Positions 21,166 to 31,909 of a stretch of 34,635 nucleotides of DNA are shown here, one piece after another (positions within the stretch are counted from its first letter, which is position 1; every line of letters starts with the position of its first letter). The notes beneath the pieces were generated by a model, which saw only the letters and a program-made list of their open reading frames with translations, had not been told where the DNA came from and did not search any database. The DNA comes from Gammaproteobacteria bacterium (GTDB taxonomy: Bacteria; Pseudomonadota; Gammaproteobacteria; Eutrophobiales; Eutrophobiaceae), in NCBI GenBank assembly GCA_030835405.1, contig JAURPG010000113.1, forward strand, positions 1 through 34,635, written 5' to 3'. The translations under genes were made by a program, and so were the position numbers.

Positions 21166-22650
21166 ATGACGACAGTTACCGAGGCACAATTTAATTCCTA
21201 CGCGGCTGAAGGTTACAACCATATCCCTGTCGTCAAGGAAGTGCTGGCAGACATGGAAACGCCTTTAAGCGCATACCTTAAACTTGCCGATGGACCATAT
21301 TCCTGTCTGTTAGAGTCCGTTGTGGGGGGCGAACGCTGGGGTCGATATTCAATCATAGGCCTGCCATCGAATACTATTATTTCAGTTGCCAAAAACCGGG
21401 TCACCATCGAAAAAAATGGTGAGACGATCTCTGAATCCAATGTCGAAGACCCTTTCGCTGAACTTGAAAGTTTCAAACAACAATTCAAGTCACCAAAGAT
21501 CGAAGGTTTACCCAGGTTTAGTGGAGGCCTGGTAGGTTATTTTGCCTATGACTGTATTGAATATATTGAGCCTAGATTAGAGTGCGATAATAAATCTGAT
21601 CCCTTGGAGACACCCGAAATCCTGCTGATGGTTGCAGAAGAGGTTGTGGTGTTTGATAACGTATCCAGGAAAATTCAAATCATCGTCCATGCCAACCCGG
21701 ATGGTAAAAAAGCCTATGTGGATGCGATTGAACGAACTGAAGCCATTGCGGCCAAACTGCTTTCCCCCTTGCCGGTACGCAAATCTCCCCAGGAGGCTGT
21801 TATGGTTAATGAATTAGACTTCAGCTTCCATTTTAACAAGCAGGACTATTTCAAAGCGGTAGAAAAAATAAAAAATTATATTATAGAGGGCGATGTCATG
21901 CAGGTGGTGTTGTCACAACGCATGTCTATTCCGTTTTCTGCTGATCCCTTTAACCTGTACCGGGCACTTCGTACTAGTAACCCTTCACCCTATATGTATT
22001 ATTTAAACCTCAAGGATTTCCATGTGGTGGGAGCATCACCGGAAGTGTTGGTCAGGCTGGAAGAGGATGAAGTCACAGTTCGGCCTATCGCCGGGACCCG
22101 TCCAAGAGGCAAAGACCAGGAGGAAGACCTTGCCCTGGAAAAAGACCTGCTGGCAGACCCCAAGGAGCTGGCGGAACACTTGATGCTGATAGACCTTGGC
22201 AGGAACGATGTGGGTAGAATTGCCGAGACCGGTTCGGTTATGGTCACAGAAAAGATGGTGATTGAACGCTACTCACATGTCATGCACATCGTCTCCAATG
22301 TCATTGGCAAATTAAATAAAGACCGTACGGCGCTGGATGTACTCAAGGCCACCTTTCCTGCTGGAACATTATCAGGTGCACCCAAGATCCGGGCCATGGA
22401 GATCATTGCCGAACTGGAACCTATCAAACGGGGTGTGTATGGTGGTGCCGTTGGTTACCTCTCGTGGGACAACAACATGGATACGGCAATTGCTATACGG
22501 ACTGCTGTAATCAAGGACGATACGTTATATATACAGGCCGGTGGCGGAATCGTGCATGACTCCACGCCGGAAAATGAATGGCAGGAATCCCTAAATAAAG
22601 GCAGGGCTATTTTTCGTGCCGTATCCATGGCAATGAAGGGTATTCAGTAG
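21166..22650 (+). CDS. trpE: Anthranilate synthase component I
   Basis: Makes anthranilate from chorismate with ammonia from TrpG, the first step of tryptophan synthesis. The N-terminal half has the LLES motif ([17 protein letters not shown]), which forms part of the tryptophan feedback site, so feedback inhibition is expected. The C-terminal chorismate-binding half has [39 protein letters not shown] and [18 protein letters not shown]. The length of 494 aa is typical. It is probably cotranscribed with rpe. Its partner gene trpG is 6.8 kb downstream instead of next to it. No leader-peptide attenuator was seen in the 25-bp gap from rpe. Confidence 0.98.
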
Positions 22651-22722: not shown

Positions 22723-23088
22723 CTATGTGGTTTTCTTCCCCATACCAACCATTACACCTATTGTTGCTGCTATTCCAATCAAGACAATAATGGGGTGCAT
22801 TATTGGGGTATGGGCCTCTGCATGACCTGCTGTTGTTTCTGTCGCCATCTGAGATCCGGTAGCCTCAGCGGCCATGGTGCCATCGGCCGCTGGCTCGGCG
22901 GCCTCTGATGAAGCCATGGCCTCATGGGACTTTAACCTTGGGCCGGGATTGACGGTTTCAATCTGTCCGGTCTCCGGGTTGACCCAAATATAGGGGGCGG
23001 AATAGACCACGTCACCATCGGTTGCCCAAAGCGGTAGACTCAATCCTGATACCAACATTATAACTAGACTGGTAATGAAATATTTCAT
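22723..23088 (-). CDS. Small Ala-rich membrane-anchored protein, unknown
   Basis: Unrecognised protein of 121 aa. It has a signal peptide (residues 1-22, ending PLWA), then a short motif-like stretch, APYIWVNPETGQIETVNPGP, then a low-complexity Ala/Glu/Thr/Met-rich segment (about 55-92), and a C-terminal hydrophobic helix (about 96-115) ending in Lys residues. That layout suggests an exported protein held in the inner membrane by its C-terminus. The ribosome site is weak (GGTTACT). It runs opposite to its neighbours, trpE (convergent) and the amidohydrolase gene (divergent). Codon use and the signal peptide make it look real; no function can be assigned. Confidence 0.7.
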   Translation of the reverse strand: MKYFITSLVIMLVSGLSLPLWATDGDVVYSAPYIWVNPETGQIETVNPGPRLKSHEAMASSEAAEPAADGTMAAEATGSQMATETTAGHAEAHTPIMHPIIVLIGIAATIGVMVGMGKKTT

Positions 23089-23365: not shown

Positions 23366-25522
23366 ATGAACAACAGTTTACATCTATTCCGTATAACAAT
23401 TTATCTGCTGTGTTTACCCATACTATTATCATCATTTACCGTTTCTGCCCAGGAGGTGCTTAAAGCGGATACCATTGTAGTCAATGGCAAGATTTTCACC
23501 ATGGACAATCACGACATCCTTTCTAGCGATCCCGGGACTATTGTTGATGCCATGGCAATCCGCCAGGGTCATATACTGGCCCTTGGGACAAGAAACGAAG
23601 TAATGCAACTGGCAAGGCCAGGCACCCGGATCATGGATGTACAGGGCAAGACAGTCATACCCGGTTTTATTGAGACCCATGTACACCCTGAAAGTACCAT
23701 GAATAATGTTGAGCTTTATGCCGATGAACGCGATGCATATTCCTGGGCACCTGGATTACACTTTGCGGTATTAATCGAAGAGGACGGCCCGAAAACGCTG
23801 GCAAAGATTAACGCCATCCTTGATGAATTTCCGCCTCTTGCAGATGAATGGATTCATGTCTACCTGATCCCCAGTGAAGAGACTGATTACCCCGATATCG
23901 GCTCACTAACGGTTGGCCTTTATGACGAATTTCTTACCAAGGACATGGTCTCTACAGCCATTTCTGAAAACCCTGCAGTACTGGGTAGCGGCACCGGCCT
24001 GAGTATTGTCCGCCAGCAAGACGTGGTGGTGAGGGTAACACTGGCACCGGATGGTAAAAGCCTGAGCCAGGTACTCAAGGTCCCCCAGGCAAACAATACC
24101 AGGCCTGCCACCAGTCCATTAACCGCCGGCAATCCATTTGAATATTCGGTATTTAAGAAGAACGTGGCCATGGACCTGGCTGAAGAGATGCATGCCCACC
24201 AGGGATGTGTATGGGCAGAAGACGGTCCTCACCATGGTCATCATTGTAGTCATCGCGCGGCGATAATGAACAACCTGGCCTACGAGGCCACCCTTGATGC
24301 CTGGCCAACGTTTGTTGATGCCTCAAATAATTATGTGTCGCTGGCAGATGATTCAGGAGACCGTGGAATCATCACCGAAACATTCCGCGATGCCTGGGAA
24401 CTCACCATGTTTCCACCCCGCATCCCCCAGAACATGTATAACGAATTATTATTGGAGGCCATGAACAGTTATGCCAGTGCCGGTGTTACCATGATTGCCT
24501 CCAGTATCGAACAGGGAAGGACATTGGGCGGATTTTATTATCTGCTCAGGAAGGAAGGCCGTCTGCCAGTTCGTTTTGGTTATGGCTACGAGATGTTCCG
24601 TAGCCCACTGCTCTATCCTTCCGGACCACAAATGGTCAACCTGCTGGGTGCCCATGTCAGTACACCCAAGGTTAATCCCTGGTTCTGGCCCATGGGTATT
24701 ACCGATGGCGGTGCAGGCGATTCGCGGCGGGTGGCATGTTTTGAAGAAGACCTGCCTGGCCCGGACATGCTGAAACAACGTGAAATGTGTATGGCAGGAG
24801 AAGCTTATCGTATAGACCGCATCCTCAAACCTGCTATTAAGGCCGGTTGGCGCTTGTTCAGCATGCACTCCTTTGGCAGTAATGCCTTTCGCTTACATGC
24901 GCAGTGGATAGATGAGGCCCGTCAGGAAGCCAATATGTCCATGGATGATCTCCGGGATTTACGAATCGGGTTTGCCCATGGCGGCGCCATCGGCAAGGTC
25001 CCCGATGTCATTGAGATCATGAAAGACTTCAACTTCTACGTACCCATTGCACCGGACGACGTGGCAGCATCCGTTGACCAGGTAAAACGTTATGGCCCGG
25101 AAGGTCTGCAGTTCCTGGCACCTGCCAAGACCCTGCTGGAGGCCGGCGTGAAGGTCGTGGGTGAACATGGCGGCAGGATGCAACCACAACTGTATTTCAA
25201 TGCCTTAAACCTGTTTGTTAATCGCCGGATACGTGAATCGGAGGACCCGGTAGATGGCGGCATAGTCGTCATGCCTGAAGAGGCCGTTAGCCGGGCCACG
25301 GCACTTCGCCTGTATACCAGTCGGGCGGCCGAATGGTTATTCGCCGAAGACCTGGGAGGGTCACTGGAACCGGGGAAATGGGCTGATTTTGTAGTACTGG
25401 ACAGGGACTATTTCACTATGCCCCAGGCGGAATTACTGGATAACAAGGTTATTCTGACTGTTGTAGGTGACAAAGTCGTTTACCAGGACCCGGTATGGCA
25501 ACCACAGTTGAGCACGAATTGA
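23366..25522 (+). CDS. Exported amidohydrolase family protein (YtcJ-like)
   Basis: Metal-dependent hydrolase of the amidohydrolase superfamily, group 3. Residues 1-28 form a signal peptide ending VSAQE, so it is periplasmic or outer-membrane-facing. The N-terminal part has ADTIVVNGKIFTMD and VIPGFIETHVHPES with the metal-binding HxH near residues 104-106. Later likely ligands are in LFSMHSFGSNAFR, IGFAHGGAIGK and VVGEHGGRMQP. The C-terminal strand WADFVVLDRDYF is usual for the family. At 718 aa it is longer than most YtcJ relatives (about 530-600 aa), partly from an insertion with a His-rich stretch, DGPHHGHHCSHR (about residues 285-297). GGGGGGAAAC precedes the ATG. The substrate is unknown. 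It lies 68 bp before the MxaA/MxaK-like gene. Confidence 0.88.
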   Translation: MNNSLHLFRITIYLLCLPILLSSFTVSAQEVLKADTIVVNGKIFTMDNHDILSSDPGTIVDAMAIRQGHILALGTRNEVMQLARPGTRIMDVQGKTVIPGFIETHVHPESTMNNVELYADERDAYSWAPGLHFAVLIEEDGPKTLAKINAILDEFPPLADEWIHVYLIPSEETDYPDIGSLTVGLYDEFLTKDMVSTAISENPAVLGSGTGLSIVRQQDVVVRVTLAPDGKSLSQVLKVPQANNTRPATSPLTAGNPFEYSVFKKNVAMDLAEEMHAHQGCVWAEDGPHHGHHCSHRAAIMNNLAYEATLDAWPTFVDASNNYVSLADDSGDRGIITETFRDAWELTMFPPRIPQNMYNELLLEAMNSYASAGVTMIASSIEQGRTLGGFYYLLRKEGRLPVRFGYGYEMFRSPLLYPSGPQMVNLLGAHVSTPKVNPWFWPMGITDGGAGDSRRVACFEEDLPGPDMLKQREMCMAGEAYRIDRILKPAIKAGWRLFSMHSFGSNAFRLHAQWIDEARQEANMSMDDLRDLRIGFAHGGAIGKVPDVIEIMKDFNFYVPIAPDDVAASVDQVKRYGPEGLQFLAPAKTLLEAGVKVVGEHGGRMQPQLYFNALNLFVNRRIRESEDPVDGGIVVMPEEAVSRATALRLYTSRAAEWLFAEDLGGSLEPGKWADFVVLDRDYFTMPQAELLDNKVILTVVGDKVVYQDPVWQPQLSTN

Positions 25523-25590: not shown

Positions 25591-27312
25591 ATGAATTTTA
25601 TTAATGTTTTACAGAATCGACCTCGGCTGATTGCTGGTCTAGTTACCGCTTTAGTTCTGGTTATTTGTTGTCTGCTTGTCATTGCATCTCTTTTAGCAAA
25701 ACCGGAGCAGTATTTTCAACCGGTTGACGCCCCACAGCAAAGCTTGAGCAATGAACAAATTATTGCAGGTTGGGTCAAGCTTGACCGACCCAGTTATCAT
25801 GTTGGCGAAGTAATACATCAACAACTTCGGATTCTATATCGAAGCGATAAAGTGGTCCCAGATATCGACAACTTGCGTAGAAGGATGAGTTTCTTTCCGC
25901 TTGAAAACCGTAACTTGACAGAAACTGTCATCAATCATCCGGAGCAGATAGTTGAATATATTCTTGATTATGAATTACAGGCAGTACGGGTAGAACCCCA
26001 ACAAACTTACCGTATCGATCCATTCATTCTGTACTATACAAATGTAGACCAGGCAGATGACAATGTCTTTTCATATACAGTTCAAACACCAGTTGTACAT
26101 ATTGGTTCATTCTATCCTGATAACATAGATCGCATTGTCTTACATGATATTAAAGGGGCCCTTGGTACCGCGAACCATCTCCGCCAAACCATACCCGCAG
26201 GTAGTGGCATTCTCTTATTGGCCGTTGCCGGTATTTTATTGTGGCACTTTGGGAGAAGAAGAAACATCCAGGAATTATCTGAGGAAGAACAACTTTGGCG
26301 GGTTTTCATATCAATCAAGTCTACCGATCTGAACAACCGGTTACGCCTGTTAAATTATGAGCAGGTCTTCACGCGTTTGTTATATATACAAACAGATATT
26401 ACTCCCGAGTCATTCTGGTCCGGGCTTAACCCTGATAATGAAGAATGGCGGCCACTGGCAATTGAGGCCCGAAAAATTCTGATTGAAAATTACCAGGCCG
26501 ACGAGCCCGATGCAGCTGGTATTGATACAATTAAATCAATTTTGGAAAAGCAGCTTGCTGCACTGGTAGAAGAATCAAGATTAAAGATAGAACAGCAACC
26601 CACTTTCGGACAACGGATATCGCAACAGCCAACTGTGATAACGCATGCAGGAATTACCGCACTATTTGCTATCGTATTACTGGCAATGTCAGCAGCACCG
26701 AATCTCTGGCTGTCCGGTGAACTGAAAAACTATAACCATATAATTACTGACGTACAGTCAGGTGATATAAGTGAAAATCACTACCTAGATCTATCGGCCA
26801 TGGGCGACCGGTCTACCAACAATGTTGTAAAGTTTGCCGCTCTTTATAATGCAGGAACGCTACGGACAGAAAATAGTTTTTCCATGTTCAACCCCGAAGA
26901 TGAAAAACTCATTCTCAATACTGCAATCAGGGCAGATAGTGTCGAAACCCTGTTTATGATTTTGCTAGAAGATGGTCCATTTGATGAAGAGTCGCAAATT
27001 GTCACCGTACTGCTGAATGGTGTTGAACAACTCAGGCGCGCACAACTGGATTTACAGGCTGCCATACGTATCAATCCATATGATAATGATGCACTTAGAA
27101 ACCATGAACTGATCCTCAAGCGCCGTGCACTGATTCTGCAAAGGCTGGGAGAAATCAGACAGTTCTACCGCTCCCAAAAGGATGGGGAAGAACAAGAGGC
27201 CCTGTCTGACCAGGGGATAATCAACCTACTGGAAGCAGAACTTCCGGAAGATGATGATGAGCAGGCATCGGGTAAAGATGACCGCGGTTATATGATTCTG
27301 GAGCGGTTTTAA
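25591..27312 (+). CDS. Membrane protein resembling an MxaA-MxaK fusion
   Basis: Protein of 573 aa with three apparent membrane helices (about residues 13-35, 204-220, 350-370). Between the first two is a periplasmic beta-rich domain (about 55-200) of the MxaA/BatD type. Between the second and third is a cytoplasmic helical part with FTRLLYIQ and WSGLNPDNEEWRPLAIEARKI, which recalls the C-terminal part of MxaA. After the third helix is a periplasmic TPR-like part, including AALYNAGTLR, RRAQLDLQAAIRINPYDNDA and LRNHELILKRRAL, similar to MxaK. In methylotrophs MxaA and MxaK are separate accessory proteins for calcium insertion into methanol dehydrogenase. The likeness is judged by layout and motifs, not by alignment. 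The stop overlaps the next ATG (TAATG), so it is coupled to the vWA genes. Confidence 0.6.
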   Translation: MNFINVLQNRPRLIAGLVTALVLVICCLLVIASLLAKPEQYFQPVDAPQQSLSNEQIIAGWVKLDRPSYHVGEVIHQQLRILYRSDKVVPDIDNLRRRMSFFPLENRNLTETVINHPEQIVEYILDYELQAVRVEPQQTYRIDPFILYYTNVDQADDNVFSYTVQTPVVHIGSFYPDNIDRIVLHDIKGALGTANHLRQTIPAGSGILLLAVAGILLWHFGRRRNIQELSEEEQLWRVFISIKSTDLNNRLRLLNYEQVFTRLLYIQTDITPESFWSGLNPDNEEWRPLAIEARKILIENYQADEPDAAGIDTIKSILEKQLAALVEESRLKIEQQPTFGQRISQQPTVITHAGITALFAIVLLAMSAAPNLWLSGELKNYNHIITDVQSGDISENHYLDLSAMGDRSTNNVVKFAALYNAGTLRTENSFSMFNPEDEKLILNTAIRADSVETLFMILLEDGPFDEESQIVTVLLNGVEQLRRAQLDLQAAIRINPYDNDALRNHELILKRRALILQRLGEIRQFYRSQKDGEEQEALSDQGIINLLEAELPEDDDEQASGKDDRGYMILERF

Positions 27313-28364
27313 TGGAAAGCAGTAACAGCATTATTCAGGAGTTAATCATCAATTCGCCTGAATATGGATTCATTATTGTCCCGCTGTTACTTGTCCTGTT
27401 ATGGCAGGTTCTGTTTAATAAAAAACGCGGCAATTACAAACTGAACGGCCTTGAGTATCTACGCGCCCATCATTGCCTGAAAGGTAGTTCAAGAAAGATT
27501 TACCGGTCTGTACTGTGGTTTTTTTTTGTTGCCCTGGTGGCAGTCATCTGGATCGATCCGGTGCTGTATACCAATACACCATTATTAAGTTCCGAGAACG
27601 AGACACTGCATAAAAATTTTATCGTTGCCTTCGACATGTCTCCCTCAATGAACCTGCCTGTAGAGCACAAGGGTTATGGAGGCGAGGACCTTACCGCAGG
27701 CCAGGAAGGAACAACCCGGTATGAGACTGCCAGGGAGGCACTATTCGATTTTCTACAACGATTTGACGGTGAGCGGTTTGGCCTCATCCTGTTCAGTACT
27801 GAACCATTTCTTGCCCGTTGGCCTACAACGGAAACCTCAAATCAGTTCCTTGAAATCCTGGGGGACAATATCCGTAGAGGTTCAGGAACCCAGCTTGAGG
27901 CATTTTCATCCCTGACCAATATCGACAAGGCATTGACCCTGGCTAGGGAAGTCCTGGGTGGTGAAGAAGGTGCCATCATTATGATCTCAGATACCGAGGA
28001 TGATATGGAAAACCTTGGGGGCGCCGTCAGAATACTTCGTGAAAACAATATACGCCTGTATACCATTGGTGTGGGTGTGTCTGATTTTATCATCCAGAGT
28101 CTTGACCAGCAATTTGCTGATGATCCTGGCTTCCGTATTTTTCAGGTGGACTCTGAGGAAGATATGCGCGAAGCCTACAAGGTGGTGAGCGAAGTAGAAG
28201 AATCACCACTATTCAGCCTGGAGTCCAATATTTATGAATACGATCTCAGGTGGGTGTTATCACTGATGGCCTTATTGGTCATGACCGGCCTGTTATGGCT
28301 AGACCAGTTTTATTTCCACCAGTCTACCAATGCTTTTACATCCTTATGGATAGGCGGGACTTGA
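27312..28364 (+). CDS. vWA domain membrane protein, MxaC-like
   Basis: Membrane-anchored von Willebrand A protein of 350 aa. Hydrophobic segments are at about residues 16-35, 58-80 and 315-335. The vWA domain (about 95-290) has an intact MIDAS: DMSPS in FIVAFDMSPSMN, a Thr-containing loop in RRGSGTQLEA, and Asp in IIMISDTEDD. An insertion after the first motif (VEHKGYGGEDLTAGQEG) is unlike the compact BatA type. Size, topology and order next to an MxaA-like gene match MxaC best, with BatA/BatB as the alternative. The start overlaps the preceding stop. It probably works in one complex with its neighbours. Confidence 0.8.
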   Translation: MESSNSIIQELIINSPEYGFIIVPLLLVLLWQVLFNKKRGNYKLNGLEYLRAHHCLKGSSRKIYRSVLWFFFVALVAVIWIDPVLYTNTPLLSSENETLHKNFIVAFDMSPSMNLPVEHKGYGGEDLTAGQEGTTRYETAREALFDFLQRFDGERFGLILFSTEPFLARWPTTETSNQFLEILGDNIRRGSGTQLEAFSSLTNIDKALTLAREVLGGEEGAIIMISDTEDDMENLGGAVRILRENNIRLYTIGVGVSDFIIQSLDQQFADDPGFRIFQVDSEEDMREAYKVVSEVEESPLFSLESNIYEYDLRWVLSLMALLVMTGLLWLDQFYFHQSTNAFTSLWIGGT

Positions 28365-28368
28365 TGAT

Positions 28369-29334
28369 ATGGGGTTCGAATATCCAGCCGCTTTCTATAG
28401 TATTGTCATTTTACCGCTTGTCCTGTGGATTCTCTGGAAAGGTATTAATTATACCGGCCTGATCTCGTCTCTTTATAAATCTGACTCGCCAACAGGTTAT
28501 TACAAAACCATAAAAACTACTGCTGTTGTCATTATATTTTTATGCCTGGTTCTGGTAGGTGCCAGACCTTACCTCGAACCCCGGACAACAGCTGACTATA
28601 TCTTTTTAACCGACATATCTCGCAGCATGACGGCACGAAATTACTGTAGTGAACCAAGCTTCCTGGACAGGAGCAAGGAAGTCATGCGTGAAATTCTGGA
28701 AAATGTCCCTGAAGGCCGATTTGGCATGTTCGCGTTTGCAAGACTGGCCTTCCCCATCTCTCAAATGACCTTCAATCATCACTACCTTCATGATGTCATT
28801 GATAAAGGTCTGGGCGTTGGCATGATATTTGAGGCTACGGCAACCGGGATCACCAACGGCCTGTCGGTGGTGGCCCAGAAAAAAACCAATTTTCCCGAAA
28901 TATATGGCAATGTTGAATATATCATTCTGTTTAGCGATGGATTCATGGAAGGTGACTGGCGTAATGATTTAACACAATCACTGGCGGACATCAGGCAGGC
29001 AGGGATAAAAGTAATCACTGTTGGTATTGGAAACCCTGGAGAGACGCCGATACCCAGACAGGTTAATGGCGAGTGTGTCGATGATTACCTGCAGTCAGGC
29101 GGCAGACCATTGCGAATTCCACTTCAGGATGACCTGTTAAAGTTTATTGCCACCGAGACAGGTGGCGATTATTTTGGTGAAGGTACCATAAATGAACTGA
29201 TTACCTTCCTGCGAGAAAATACCTTGAAACCGGCACTTGAAAATACTCCATTTACCGAACAGCAACGCAGAGACATCAGTGGTGGTTTTCTTTTAACTAC
29301 CACACTGGCGTTACTGGTTTTTCTGCTTCTGTAA
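28369..29334 (+). CDS. vWA domain membrane protein, MxaL/BatA-like
   Basis: Second vWA protein, 321 aa. Hydrophobic segments lie at about residues 8-24, 46-64 and 303-321 (C-terminal end). The vWA domain (about 75-280) has an intact MIDAS: DISRS in YIFLTDISRSMTARN, the Thr in EATATGITNGL, and Asp in ILFSDGFMEG. Small size and a C-terminal helix that ends the protein match MxaL of methanol dehydrogenase clusters; BatA-type proteins are the alternative. It starts four bases after the previous stop. Three coupled genes (MxaA/K-like, MxaC-like, MxaL-like) make a compact module. No MoxR ATPase or DUF58 protein is present next to it. Confidence 0.8.
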   Translation: MGFEYPAAFYSIVILPLVLWILWKGINYTGLISSLYKSDSPTGYYKTIKTTAVVIIFLCLVLVGARPYLEPRTTADYIFLTDISRSMTARNYCSEPSFLDRSKEVMREILENVPEGRFGMFAFARLAFPISQMTFNHHYLHDVIDKGLGVGMIFEATATGITNGLSVVAQKKTNFPEIYGNVEYIILFSDGFMEGDWRNDLTQSLADIRQAGIKVITVGIGNPGETPIPRQVNGECVDDYLQSGGRPLRIPLQDDLLKFIATETGGDYFGEGTINELITFLRENTLKPALENTPFTEQQRRDISGGFLLTTTLALLVFLLL

Positions 29335-29462
29335 TTTGCTATTAACCCTTCCTTCCAGCTCACTATACTGTAATGTAAAAACGAACGGCTGGATTTGTTG
29401 TAGCCATAATTAAAAATCTGGATAATATAAATGCTACCTGACACTTGCCTGGAACCATACAA

Positions 29463-30059
29463 ATGTTACTGATGATCGACAATTATGACTCTTTTACCTT
29501 CAATCTGGTGCAATACCTGGGTGAACTGGGTGAAAACGTGCAGGTCCATAGAAATGATAAAATCAGCCTCAGTGATATTAGAGACCTCAATCCAGAACGA
29601 ATTGTTATATCGCCGGGCCCCTGTACACCCAATGAGGCGGGCATATCCCTGCAGATACTGGAAGAATTCAAAGATACCAAACCCATTCTTGGTGTCTGTC
29701 TTGGTCACCAGTGTATCGGCCAGGTATTTGGGGGCAAGGTAATCCATGCCCGGCAAATTATGCACGGAAAAACCTCACCTGTTTACCATGAAAATACCGA
29801 TATCTTTAAGGATATTGAAGATCCCTTTACCGCTACCCGCTACCATTCCCTGGTCGTGGATGAGTCGACATTACCGGAATGCTTACATACCACCGCATGG
29901 ACTTTAAATGCGGCCGGAGAAAGAGATGAGATCATGGGTTTGAGACATAAAGACCTGCCTATATATGGTGTTCAGTTTCATCCGGAATCTATTCTCACCG
30001 AGACAGGTCACCAGTTATTAAAAAATTTCTTAACCATAACCAGTAAAAACAAACAATGA
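29463..30059 (+). CDS. trpG: Anthranilate synthase component II (glutamine amidotransferase)
   Basis: Class I glutamine amidotransferase that supplies ammonia to TrpE; it may also serve PabB in folate synthesis. Motifs: [20 protein letters not shown], the oxyanion region [13 protein letters not shown], the nucleophile Cys in [12 protein letters not shown], and the catalytic His-Glu in FHPESILTE. The ATG at 29463 gives the standard N-terminus (MLLMIDNYD); a TTG 18 bases upstream extends the frame but is not needed. The encoded protein is 198 aa. The stop overlaps the trpD start (ATGA). It is separated from trpE by the amidohydrolase and Mxa-like genes. Confidence 0.96.
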
Positions 30060-31087
30060 ATATACAACAGGCAATTGCAAAACTTATTGAACAGGAAGAC
30101 ATCGCAGGTCCAGAGATGCAGGAGGTGATGAGAAGCATCATGAAAGGAGAAGCCACTCCGGCTCAAATAGGTGGCTTCCTGATTGCCCTGCGAATGAAGG
30201 GTGAAACCATTGATGAAATTGCGGCCGCCGCCACCATTATGCGTGAATTTGCCCTCAAGGTAGATGTACAGGGTGACCACCTAATCGACATAGTGGGTAC
30301 CGGAGGTGATGGATTACATACATTTAATATTTCCACTACCGCCGCGTTTGTGATTGCCGCTGCAGGAGGAAAAGTTGCAAAACATAATAACCGTTCAGTC
30401 TCCAGTCGCAGCGGCAGTGCAGATGTACTGGACATGGCTGGCGTCAAACTGGGACTGCCACCAGAACAGGTAGCCGAGTGTATAAACAAGGTGGGTGTTG
30501 GTTTCATGTTTGCCCCGGCCCACCACAGTGCCACGAAATATGCTGTTGGTCCACGCAAAGAACTGGCAGCGAGAACAATCTTTAATATGCTGGGACCATT
30601 AACCAATCCGGCCCATGTCCCCAATCTGCTAATCGGTGTTTATGATAAGGAGCTTGTCTCACCCATAGCAGCCGTGATGAAGGTCCTGGGTAACAACCAT
30701 GTCATGGTGGTACATTCTGATGACGGTATGGATGAAATCAGTATCGGAACAGCTACCCAGGTTGCAGAACTTAAGGACGGAAATATCCTTGAGTATGAAA
30801 TTACGCCAGAACAATTTGGCATCAACAAAGGCAATATGCTTGATATCGTTGTTCATAGTATCGATGACAGTTACGCAATAATGCAATCTGTACTGAATAA
30901 TGAACCAGGTACTGCCCGCGATATTGTATTACTGAATGCCGGTGCAGCCATCTATACGGCAAACCTGTGTGACAGCCTGGATCAGGGAGTAAAACTGGCC
31001 CAGGAAGCCATTGCCAATGGTGAGGCAAAAAAGAAACTGGAAGAATTAATCATACTCAGCAATGAACTCGCGGATCATATGACATGA
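30056..31087 (+). CDS. trpD: Anthranilate phosphoribosyltransferase
   Basis: Joins anthranilate to phosphoribosyl pyrophosphate. The PRPP site is seen in [16 protein letters not shown], followed by [22 protein letters not shown], then [35 protein letters not shown] and the metal-binding SDDGMDEIS. The length of 343 aa is typical. One residue is unusual: the motif usually written KHGNR is KHNNR here, an Asn for Gly at the anthranilate/PRPP interface. Translation is coupled to trpG through the ATGA overlap. Confidence 0.97.
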
Positions 31088-31102
31088 TGGGTATAGACTG
31101 CT

Positions 31103-31909
31103 ATGACTAGTACTGATCGGCCCGACATCCTTAACAAGATCCTTGAAAGAAAGCGTCAGGAAATTACCGAGCGGCAAACTAATTTGAATCTTGATACTAT
31201 TCAAAAACTTGCAGCAGACGCGTCGCCTGCCAGAGGTTTTTATCAAGCCATTGATTCTAAAATAGAGCAGGGTAAAGCGGCTGTTATTGCAGAAATCAAA
31301 AAGGCCTCACCGAGTAAGGGGATTATCCGAGAAGACTTTGATCCAGCTTTTTTAGCAAAATCCTATACGGAAGGTGGCGCAACCTGCCTTTCAGTCCTGA
31401 CTGATATGGACTTTTTTCAGGGTGATGATGAATATCTCAAGGCCGCCAAAGCAGCATGCAATCTTCCTGTATTAAGAAAAGATTTCACCATTGACCCTTA
31501 TCAGGTGTACGAAGCACGTGCGATTGGCGCTGACTGTATACTCCTGATTGTTGCCGCCTTGTCGGATCTTCAGTTAAGAGAACTGGCAGACATTACCCTT
31601 GAACTAGGGATGGATGTCCTGGTAGAAGTTCATGACCGTGAAGAACTGGAACGGGCCTTGATCCTGCGCACACCTCTGATAGGCATCAATAACCGTGATT
31701 TGCATACCTTCAAAACGGATCTTGAAACAACGATTAATCTTTTGACTGATGTTTTCCCGGACCGGACCGTGGTAACAGAAAGCGGCATACATACCACCCA
31801 ACAGGTAGCCATGTTAAGACAACATAATGTGAATGCATTCCTGATAGGAGAAGCATTCATGTCAGCGGATGATCCCGGCAAAAAACTCAAAGAGATGTTT
31901 GCAGAGTAA
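31103..31909 (+). CDS. trpC: Indole-3-glycerol phosphate synthase
   Basis: TIM-barrel enzyme that closes the indole ring. Motifs: N-terminal [13 protein letters not shown], the catalytic Lys in [21 protein letters not shown], the Glu/Lys region [43 protein letters not shown], and VVTESGIHT with the Glu and Ser at the phosphate site. The length of 268 aa is normal for the monofunctional enzyme; no TrpF domain is fused. It is 15 bp after trpD and the next ORF starts immediately after its stop. Confidence 0.97.

Follow-up and report, generated by a model that had tools for sequence, protein, structure and literature searches.

A 34,635-nucleotide contig from a gammaproteobacterium of the family Eutrophobiaceae (JAURPG010000113.1, assembly GCA_030835405.1; 'the window' is this whole stretch) carries, on its forward strand, a three-gene membrane cassette related to the Mxa proteins of methylotrophs, among which MxaA, MxaK and MxaL have a role in calcium loading of methanol dehydrogenase. 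We read it as a derived maturation cassette of the Mxa/Bat type whose client is probably the product of the gene just upstream, an exported amidohydrolase; we give this reading an even chance.

The first gene (25591-27312, +; intact) encodes a 573-residue protein, AK, differentiated into an A half (residues 1-345; 25591-26625) and a K half (residues 346-573; 26626-27312). It is followed by two genes for von Willebrand factor A (vWA) membrane proteins, C (MxaC-like, 350 residues, 27312-28364, +) and L (MxaL-like, 321 residues, 28369-29334, +). The AK stop and the C start overlap by 1 base, and 4 bp separate C from L, in keeping with the three coupled genes described by the initial annotation, which was drawn from the sequence alone. 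That annotation also placed an exported amidohydrolase ahead of the module; this is an Amidohydro_3 gene at 23366-25522 (+), encoding 718 residues with a Sec-type signal. Cassette and amidohydrolase are flanked by trpE (21166-22650) and trpGDC (29445-31909). Promoter and terminator scans gave chance-level results and so do not bear on co-transcription with trpGDC. We compared the window's own genome (G000) with four genomes of the same genus (G001-G004; L numbers below denote individual loci). G002, a second species, has an orthologous cassette at the same trp position (identities of 74% for AK, 87% and 81% for the vWA proteins and 85% for the amidohydrolase), making a chance assembly of open reading frames implausible.

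AK has three hydrophobic segments by hydropathy. Its AlphaFold model is of fair quality (mean predicted local distance difference test score, pLDDT, 79.5), with transmembrane segments at residues 11-35, 195-222 and 347-368, a β-sandwich at 58-171, helices at 231-332 and helical repeats at 376-529. The predicted layout of the A half is a transmembrane segment, a periplasmic β-sandwich, a second transmembrane segment and cytosolic helices; that of the K half is a transmembrane segment followed by periplasmic tetratricopeptide repeat (TPR)-like helices. Pfam, NCBIfam and the sequences of the PDB, searched directly with AK, yielded no real match. BatD, raised beforehand as an alternative identity for the 573-residue protein, and DUF4381 likewise gave no match in Pfam or NCBIfam (BatD at E values up to 1), a result that leaves room for a distant relation. 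The structure search was uninformative, returning only generic immunoglobulin-like and β-sandwich matches over residues 55-174 (the best a pilin, VIA Z 9.3, root-mean-square deviation 2.5 over 108 residues) and barely testing the helical parts.

Profiles were compared with hhalign, using authentic mxa clusters from eight genomes (located through MxaI) as reference and the other gene clusters of the same loci as an empirical null. The K half and MxaK each pick out the other as top match among all profiles compared, with modest strength (scores 31-32, next 23-30; P about 4e-4 to 6e-4). The runner-up for the K half is c18, encoded in an unfused operon of the same genus with the order MoxR-DUF58-c20-vWA-c18-vWA (L078, L080-L083, L211). 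The A half finds its best match in c20, which that operon encodes between DUF58 and its first vWA protein (score 43, next 24; P 5e-5). Given the MxaK match of one half and the c20 match of the other, we conclude that AK is an A-position protein fused to a K protein, an arrangement that puts K before C. MxaA has no significant match to AK, by full length (P 0.34), halves or single domains, which weighs against our reading of the cassette; it resembles the A half in layout and position, and we conclude that it is the counterpart by place and layout only. The MxaA-MxaK arrangement first proposed for this protein thus stands for the MxaK half and for the A position, and falls short for homology to MxaA.

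Both downstream genes match Pfam VWA/VWA_2 and retain an intact metal-ion-dependent adhesion site (MIDAS) motif, D-x-S-x-S, as first noted: DMSPS at residue 108 of C (27633-27647) and DISRS at residue 82 of L (28612-28626). The motif is conserved in both proteins over 13 aligned homologous loci. Among the Mxa comparisons, L and MxaL are each other's top match (score 72; P 2e-9), which bears out the early assignment of L, and C matches MxaC (P 5e-8). Hydropathy and flanking charge, read by the positive-inside rule, would place both vWA domains on the periplasmic side.

The cassette invites comparison with the MxaRSACKL part of mxaFJGIRSACKLD. Common to both are the C-type and L-type vWA proteins, the K-like TPR protein and an A-position protein built of a β-domain, a transmembrane segment and cytosolic helices; complete sister loci also contain MoxR and DUF58, in the order R-S-A(K)-C-L. 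The window locus differs in carrying A and K in one gene ahead of C, in lacking moxR and DUF58, and in having an amidohydrolase upstream instead of a dehydrogenase: there is no mxaFJGI in the window, and MxaI (PF02315) has no match in G000. The unfused operon of the same genus shares the gene order R-S-A-C-K-L and the c20 and c18 profile matches, but keeps A and K as separate genes and has no same-strand amidohydrolase directly upstream.

AK is narrowly distributed. It has three copies in G000, occurs in the four same-genus genomes and is found in none of the rest of the 96 genomes searched; a profile search of 369 genomes of the class returned G000 only, plus one short 17-bit match. Using the first vWA protein as query in named genomes added two gammaproteobacterial metagenome-assembled genomes (MAGs; L090 and L091), whose loci also encode AK. 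The resulting 15 AK loci fall into three types. Type A has the order c10 (a small exported protein), amidohydrolase, MoxR-DUF58 where present, AK, C, L; in the window and G002 it lies in the trp region and lacks the pair, and in G001 and G003 it lies at another genomic place and has it. Type B comprises amidohydrolase, AK, C and L followed by a cupredoxin-like gene and a CopD/cytochrome c gene; it is without MoxR-DUF58 in four species of the genus, carries the pair in L091 and carries MoxR in L090 (DUF58 not called there). Type C, present in all five species, runs from a metallo-beta-lactamase-fold gene through the amidohydrolase(s), MoxR, DUF58, AK and C to L; in G000 it is split over contigs C46 and C131, joined here on gene order.

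No MoxR or DUF58 gene lies near the cassette within the window, as the initial annotation had it. Taken beyond this locus, that claim does not hold: sister loci have the pair between amidohydrolase and AK (complete amidohydrolase-MoxR-DUF58-AK-C-L order in L066, L067, L070, L071, L073, L075 and L091; vWA-MoxR linkage in these and L090), and the genome search that it called for found such an operon elsewhere in G000, together with nine MoxR genes over the cut-off and eight DUF58 genes. The pair is gone from type A in G000 and G002 and from same-genus type B, both of which have it in relatives. Because every genome with a motor-less cassette also carries a complete type-C operon, the simplest reading is that MoxR-DUF58 is likely supplied to the window cassette in trans.

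The evidence for a client comes from the upstream gene. The window amidohydrolase matches Pfam Amidohydro_3 (E 6.5e-37) and has an N-terminal hydrophobic signal and an HxH motif at residues 105/107. This motif is invariant among ten aligned type-A and type-B amidohydrolases, as are His501, His538 and Glu600, which are candidates for further metal ligands by conservation only; the structure model (pLDDT 38) is too poor to use. In 14 of 14 visible loci, spanning types A, B and C plus the two MAGs, the gene that directly precedes AK, or MoxR where that is present, is a same-strand gene for an exported Amidohydro_3 protein; at the fifteenth, the C46/C131 join, the amidohydrolase neighbour is inferred across a contig gap. 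A survey of this co-occurrence had been named beforehand as the test that could refute the link, and the link held.

Proximity alone means little here, because these genomes hold unusually many Amidohydro_3 genes, a very large expansion (63 matches in G000 and 72 in G002, for genomes of 2.8 and 3.2 Mb). We dropped an amidohydrolase within 10 kb as evidence of linkage, since gene density alone often gives that. Direct co-directional adjacency is more demanding; with Amidohydro_3 at about 2% of genes, we estimate that it is expected at 1-2% of positions. Five other MoxR loci of G002 (L079, L206, L207, L209 and L210) have no adjoining amidohydrolase. Type-level trees of the amidohydrolase agree with those of AK, C and L (Mantel r 0.91-0.92). 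The long amidohydrolase subfamily and AK occur in the same five of 53 family genomes, the subfamily being absent from the other 48 and from 368 other genomes of the class. A Cys/His-rich motif, HAHQGCVWAEDGPHHGHHCSH (amidohydrolase residues 276-296; 24191-24253, +), is conserved in type-A members; we rejected it as a mark of clients, given its presence in an unlinked A-like paralogue and its absence from types B and C.

Two observations concern the amidohydrolases themselves. Members of the long subfamily are also found split into two adjacent genes (about 260-290 plus about 475 residues; G000:C42:2668-9155, G002:C1:1360105-1366616, G418:C87:51857-53985 and G419:C102:2777-4869), the larger half sometimes in tandem arrays. 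Beside the unfused R-S-A-C-K-L operon lie amidohydrolase-like proteins in which HxH is replaced by YNDGDN (L078:11558-13609 and L080:11070-13004).

Several points weigh against the amidohydrolase as client. Linkage does not by itself establish the client, and the agreement between trees may be no more than co-inheritance. Independent co-occurrence events are few, as the loci come mostly from a single genus, with two MAGs besides. In these genomes most amidohydrolases have no link to a cassette, the Cys/His motif is a subfamily trait shared with an unlinked paralogue, and amidohydrolases usually acquire metal without a dedicated AAA+ machine. Quinoproteins, moreover, appear in the same surroundings. 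In G003, a pyrroloquinoline quinone (PQQ) dehydrogenase (592 residues) and a cytochrome c precede the type-C cassette by a few genes, and PQQ dehydrogenase remnants persist at the type-C loci of G001 and G004 (L067:16380-16574 and L075:16052-16261; the N-terminal 65 residues in one, the C-terminal 70 in the other). L208 (G002:C1:1464000-1483000) is a Mxa-like operon combining both kinds of enzyme, with two amidohydrolases upstream, then vWA-MoxR-DUF58-319-residue protein-vWA, and a PQQ dehydrogenase downstream. From these loci it follows that the two kinds of enzyme may belong to one pathway and that either could be the client.

The cassette would then mature a quinoprotein dehydrogenase, as in methylotrophs, with the amidohydrolase a pathway neighbour in the same catabolic island. 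We regard this as unlikely but as a serious alternative, MxaK and MxaL being the closest characterised relatives and the genus having several PQQ-dehydrogenase-like genes, including in G000 outside the window. The initial annotation reported no quinoprotein gene near the module, which is correct for the window. All these PQQ-dehydrogenase-like matches, however, fall below the TIGR03075 cut-off. An intact PQQ dehydrogenase stands beside only one of the 15 AK loci and is decayed at two whose cassette and amidohydrolase remain intact; the trp-region loci of the window and of G002 have none. The constant neighbour is the amidohydrolase, and for that reason we favour it over a quinoprotein as client.

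A general envelope stress or assembly system of the Bat kind, serving several exported proteins with no dedicated client, is improbable. Bat operons (BatA/BatB/BatC/BatD) also combine MoxR, DUF58 and two vWA proteins; both vWA proteins of the window match Leptospira BatA/BatB models, weakly, and a role in oxidative defence has been proposed for Bat proteins (PMC3557215). Several cassettes per genome with a MoxR-DUF58 pair that is likely shared would fit general service. Yet with such a system one would not expect a single kind of enzyme gene, in matching subfamilies, to stand upstream at every visible locus, nor so narrow a distribution, and AK differs from Bat proteins in lacking a BatD or DUF4381 match and in having its TPR-like part fused to the A part. 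That the window cassette is an orphan in decay, without function since the loss of the moxR and DUF58 that type-A loci of G001 and G003 retain, is highly improbable: all window frames are intact with MIDAS motifs kept, the orthologue at the corresponding position in G002 is also intact, and type B, also without the pair, has intact frames in four species.

Further genes accompany particular locus types. In the window, c10 (22723-23088, -) is divergent from the amidohydrolase and encodes a small exported protein of 121 residues with a C-terminal transmembrane anchor and a DGDVxYSxPY...PxTGQ motif. Its relatives adjoin the amidohydrolase in type-A loci and also occur near an unfused operon. A second family, c16, has a similar layout and occurs at type-C loci; the two families resemble each other in their motifs (PY ... 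DPxTG), and each goes with the amidohydrolases of its locus type (other examples at L073:330-722, L077:4001-4381 and L070:17931-18332). In type-B loci (L064:7295-17463, L069, L072 and L074), tandem genes for TonB-receptor-like barrels of about 710 residues lie downstream, after the cupredoxin-like gene and the CopD/cytochrome c fusion.

With the amidohydrolase as client, AK and the two membrane-anchored periplasmic vWA proteins would form the envelope part of the machine, and the motor would be a MoxR AAA+ ATPase with its DUF58 partner, probably supplied in trans from the paralogous operon on C46 and C131. An ATP-driven conformational change could be transmitted across the membrane to the vWA/MIDAS domains, helping the secreted amidohydrolase, encoded directly upstream, to take metal(s) or reach its active form. 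We infer the trans supply, the client, metal loading as the step and the metal concerned; metal loading as the service is suggested by analogy with Mxa. The observation on which the initial annotation was built is confirmed, and its interpretation, a maturation system for another exported enzyme, is partly supported. CoxD-CoxE and NorQ-NorD, soluble cytosolic pairs, offer a parallel in that MoxR and vWA proteins act in the maturation of one enzyme; they differ from the membrane cassette seen here, with its predicted periplasmic vWA domains and exported candidate client. CoxD is required for the [CuSMoO2] cluster, and MoxR proteins are thought to act, with vWA partners, in the maturation of specific complexes (PMC3893208).

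Our search of the open-access literature turned up no pairing of MoxR with amidohydrolases, and this hydrolase family is not known to need an ATP-driven envelope maturase. Tentatively, exported amidohydrolases may be a new client class of MoxR-vWA machines, in which one central MoxR-DUF58 motor would serve several client-specific AK-vWA-vWA cassettes in trans, and these could then shed their motor genes. The role of MxaA, C, K, L and similar vWA cassettes, and how clients are chosen, is a long-standing question in methylotrophy. The loci described here hold related cassettes that have undergone a natural A-K fusion and, in places, natural loss of the motor genes, yet remain beside a different exported enzyme. 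Two parts of the question thereby become separable: the assignment of cassettes to individual amidohydrolases, and the possibility that several cassettes run on one motor.

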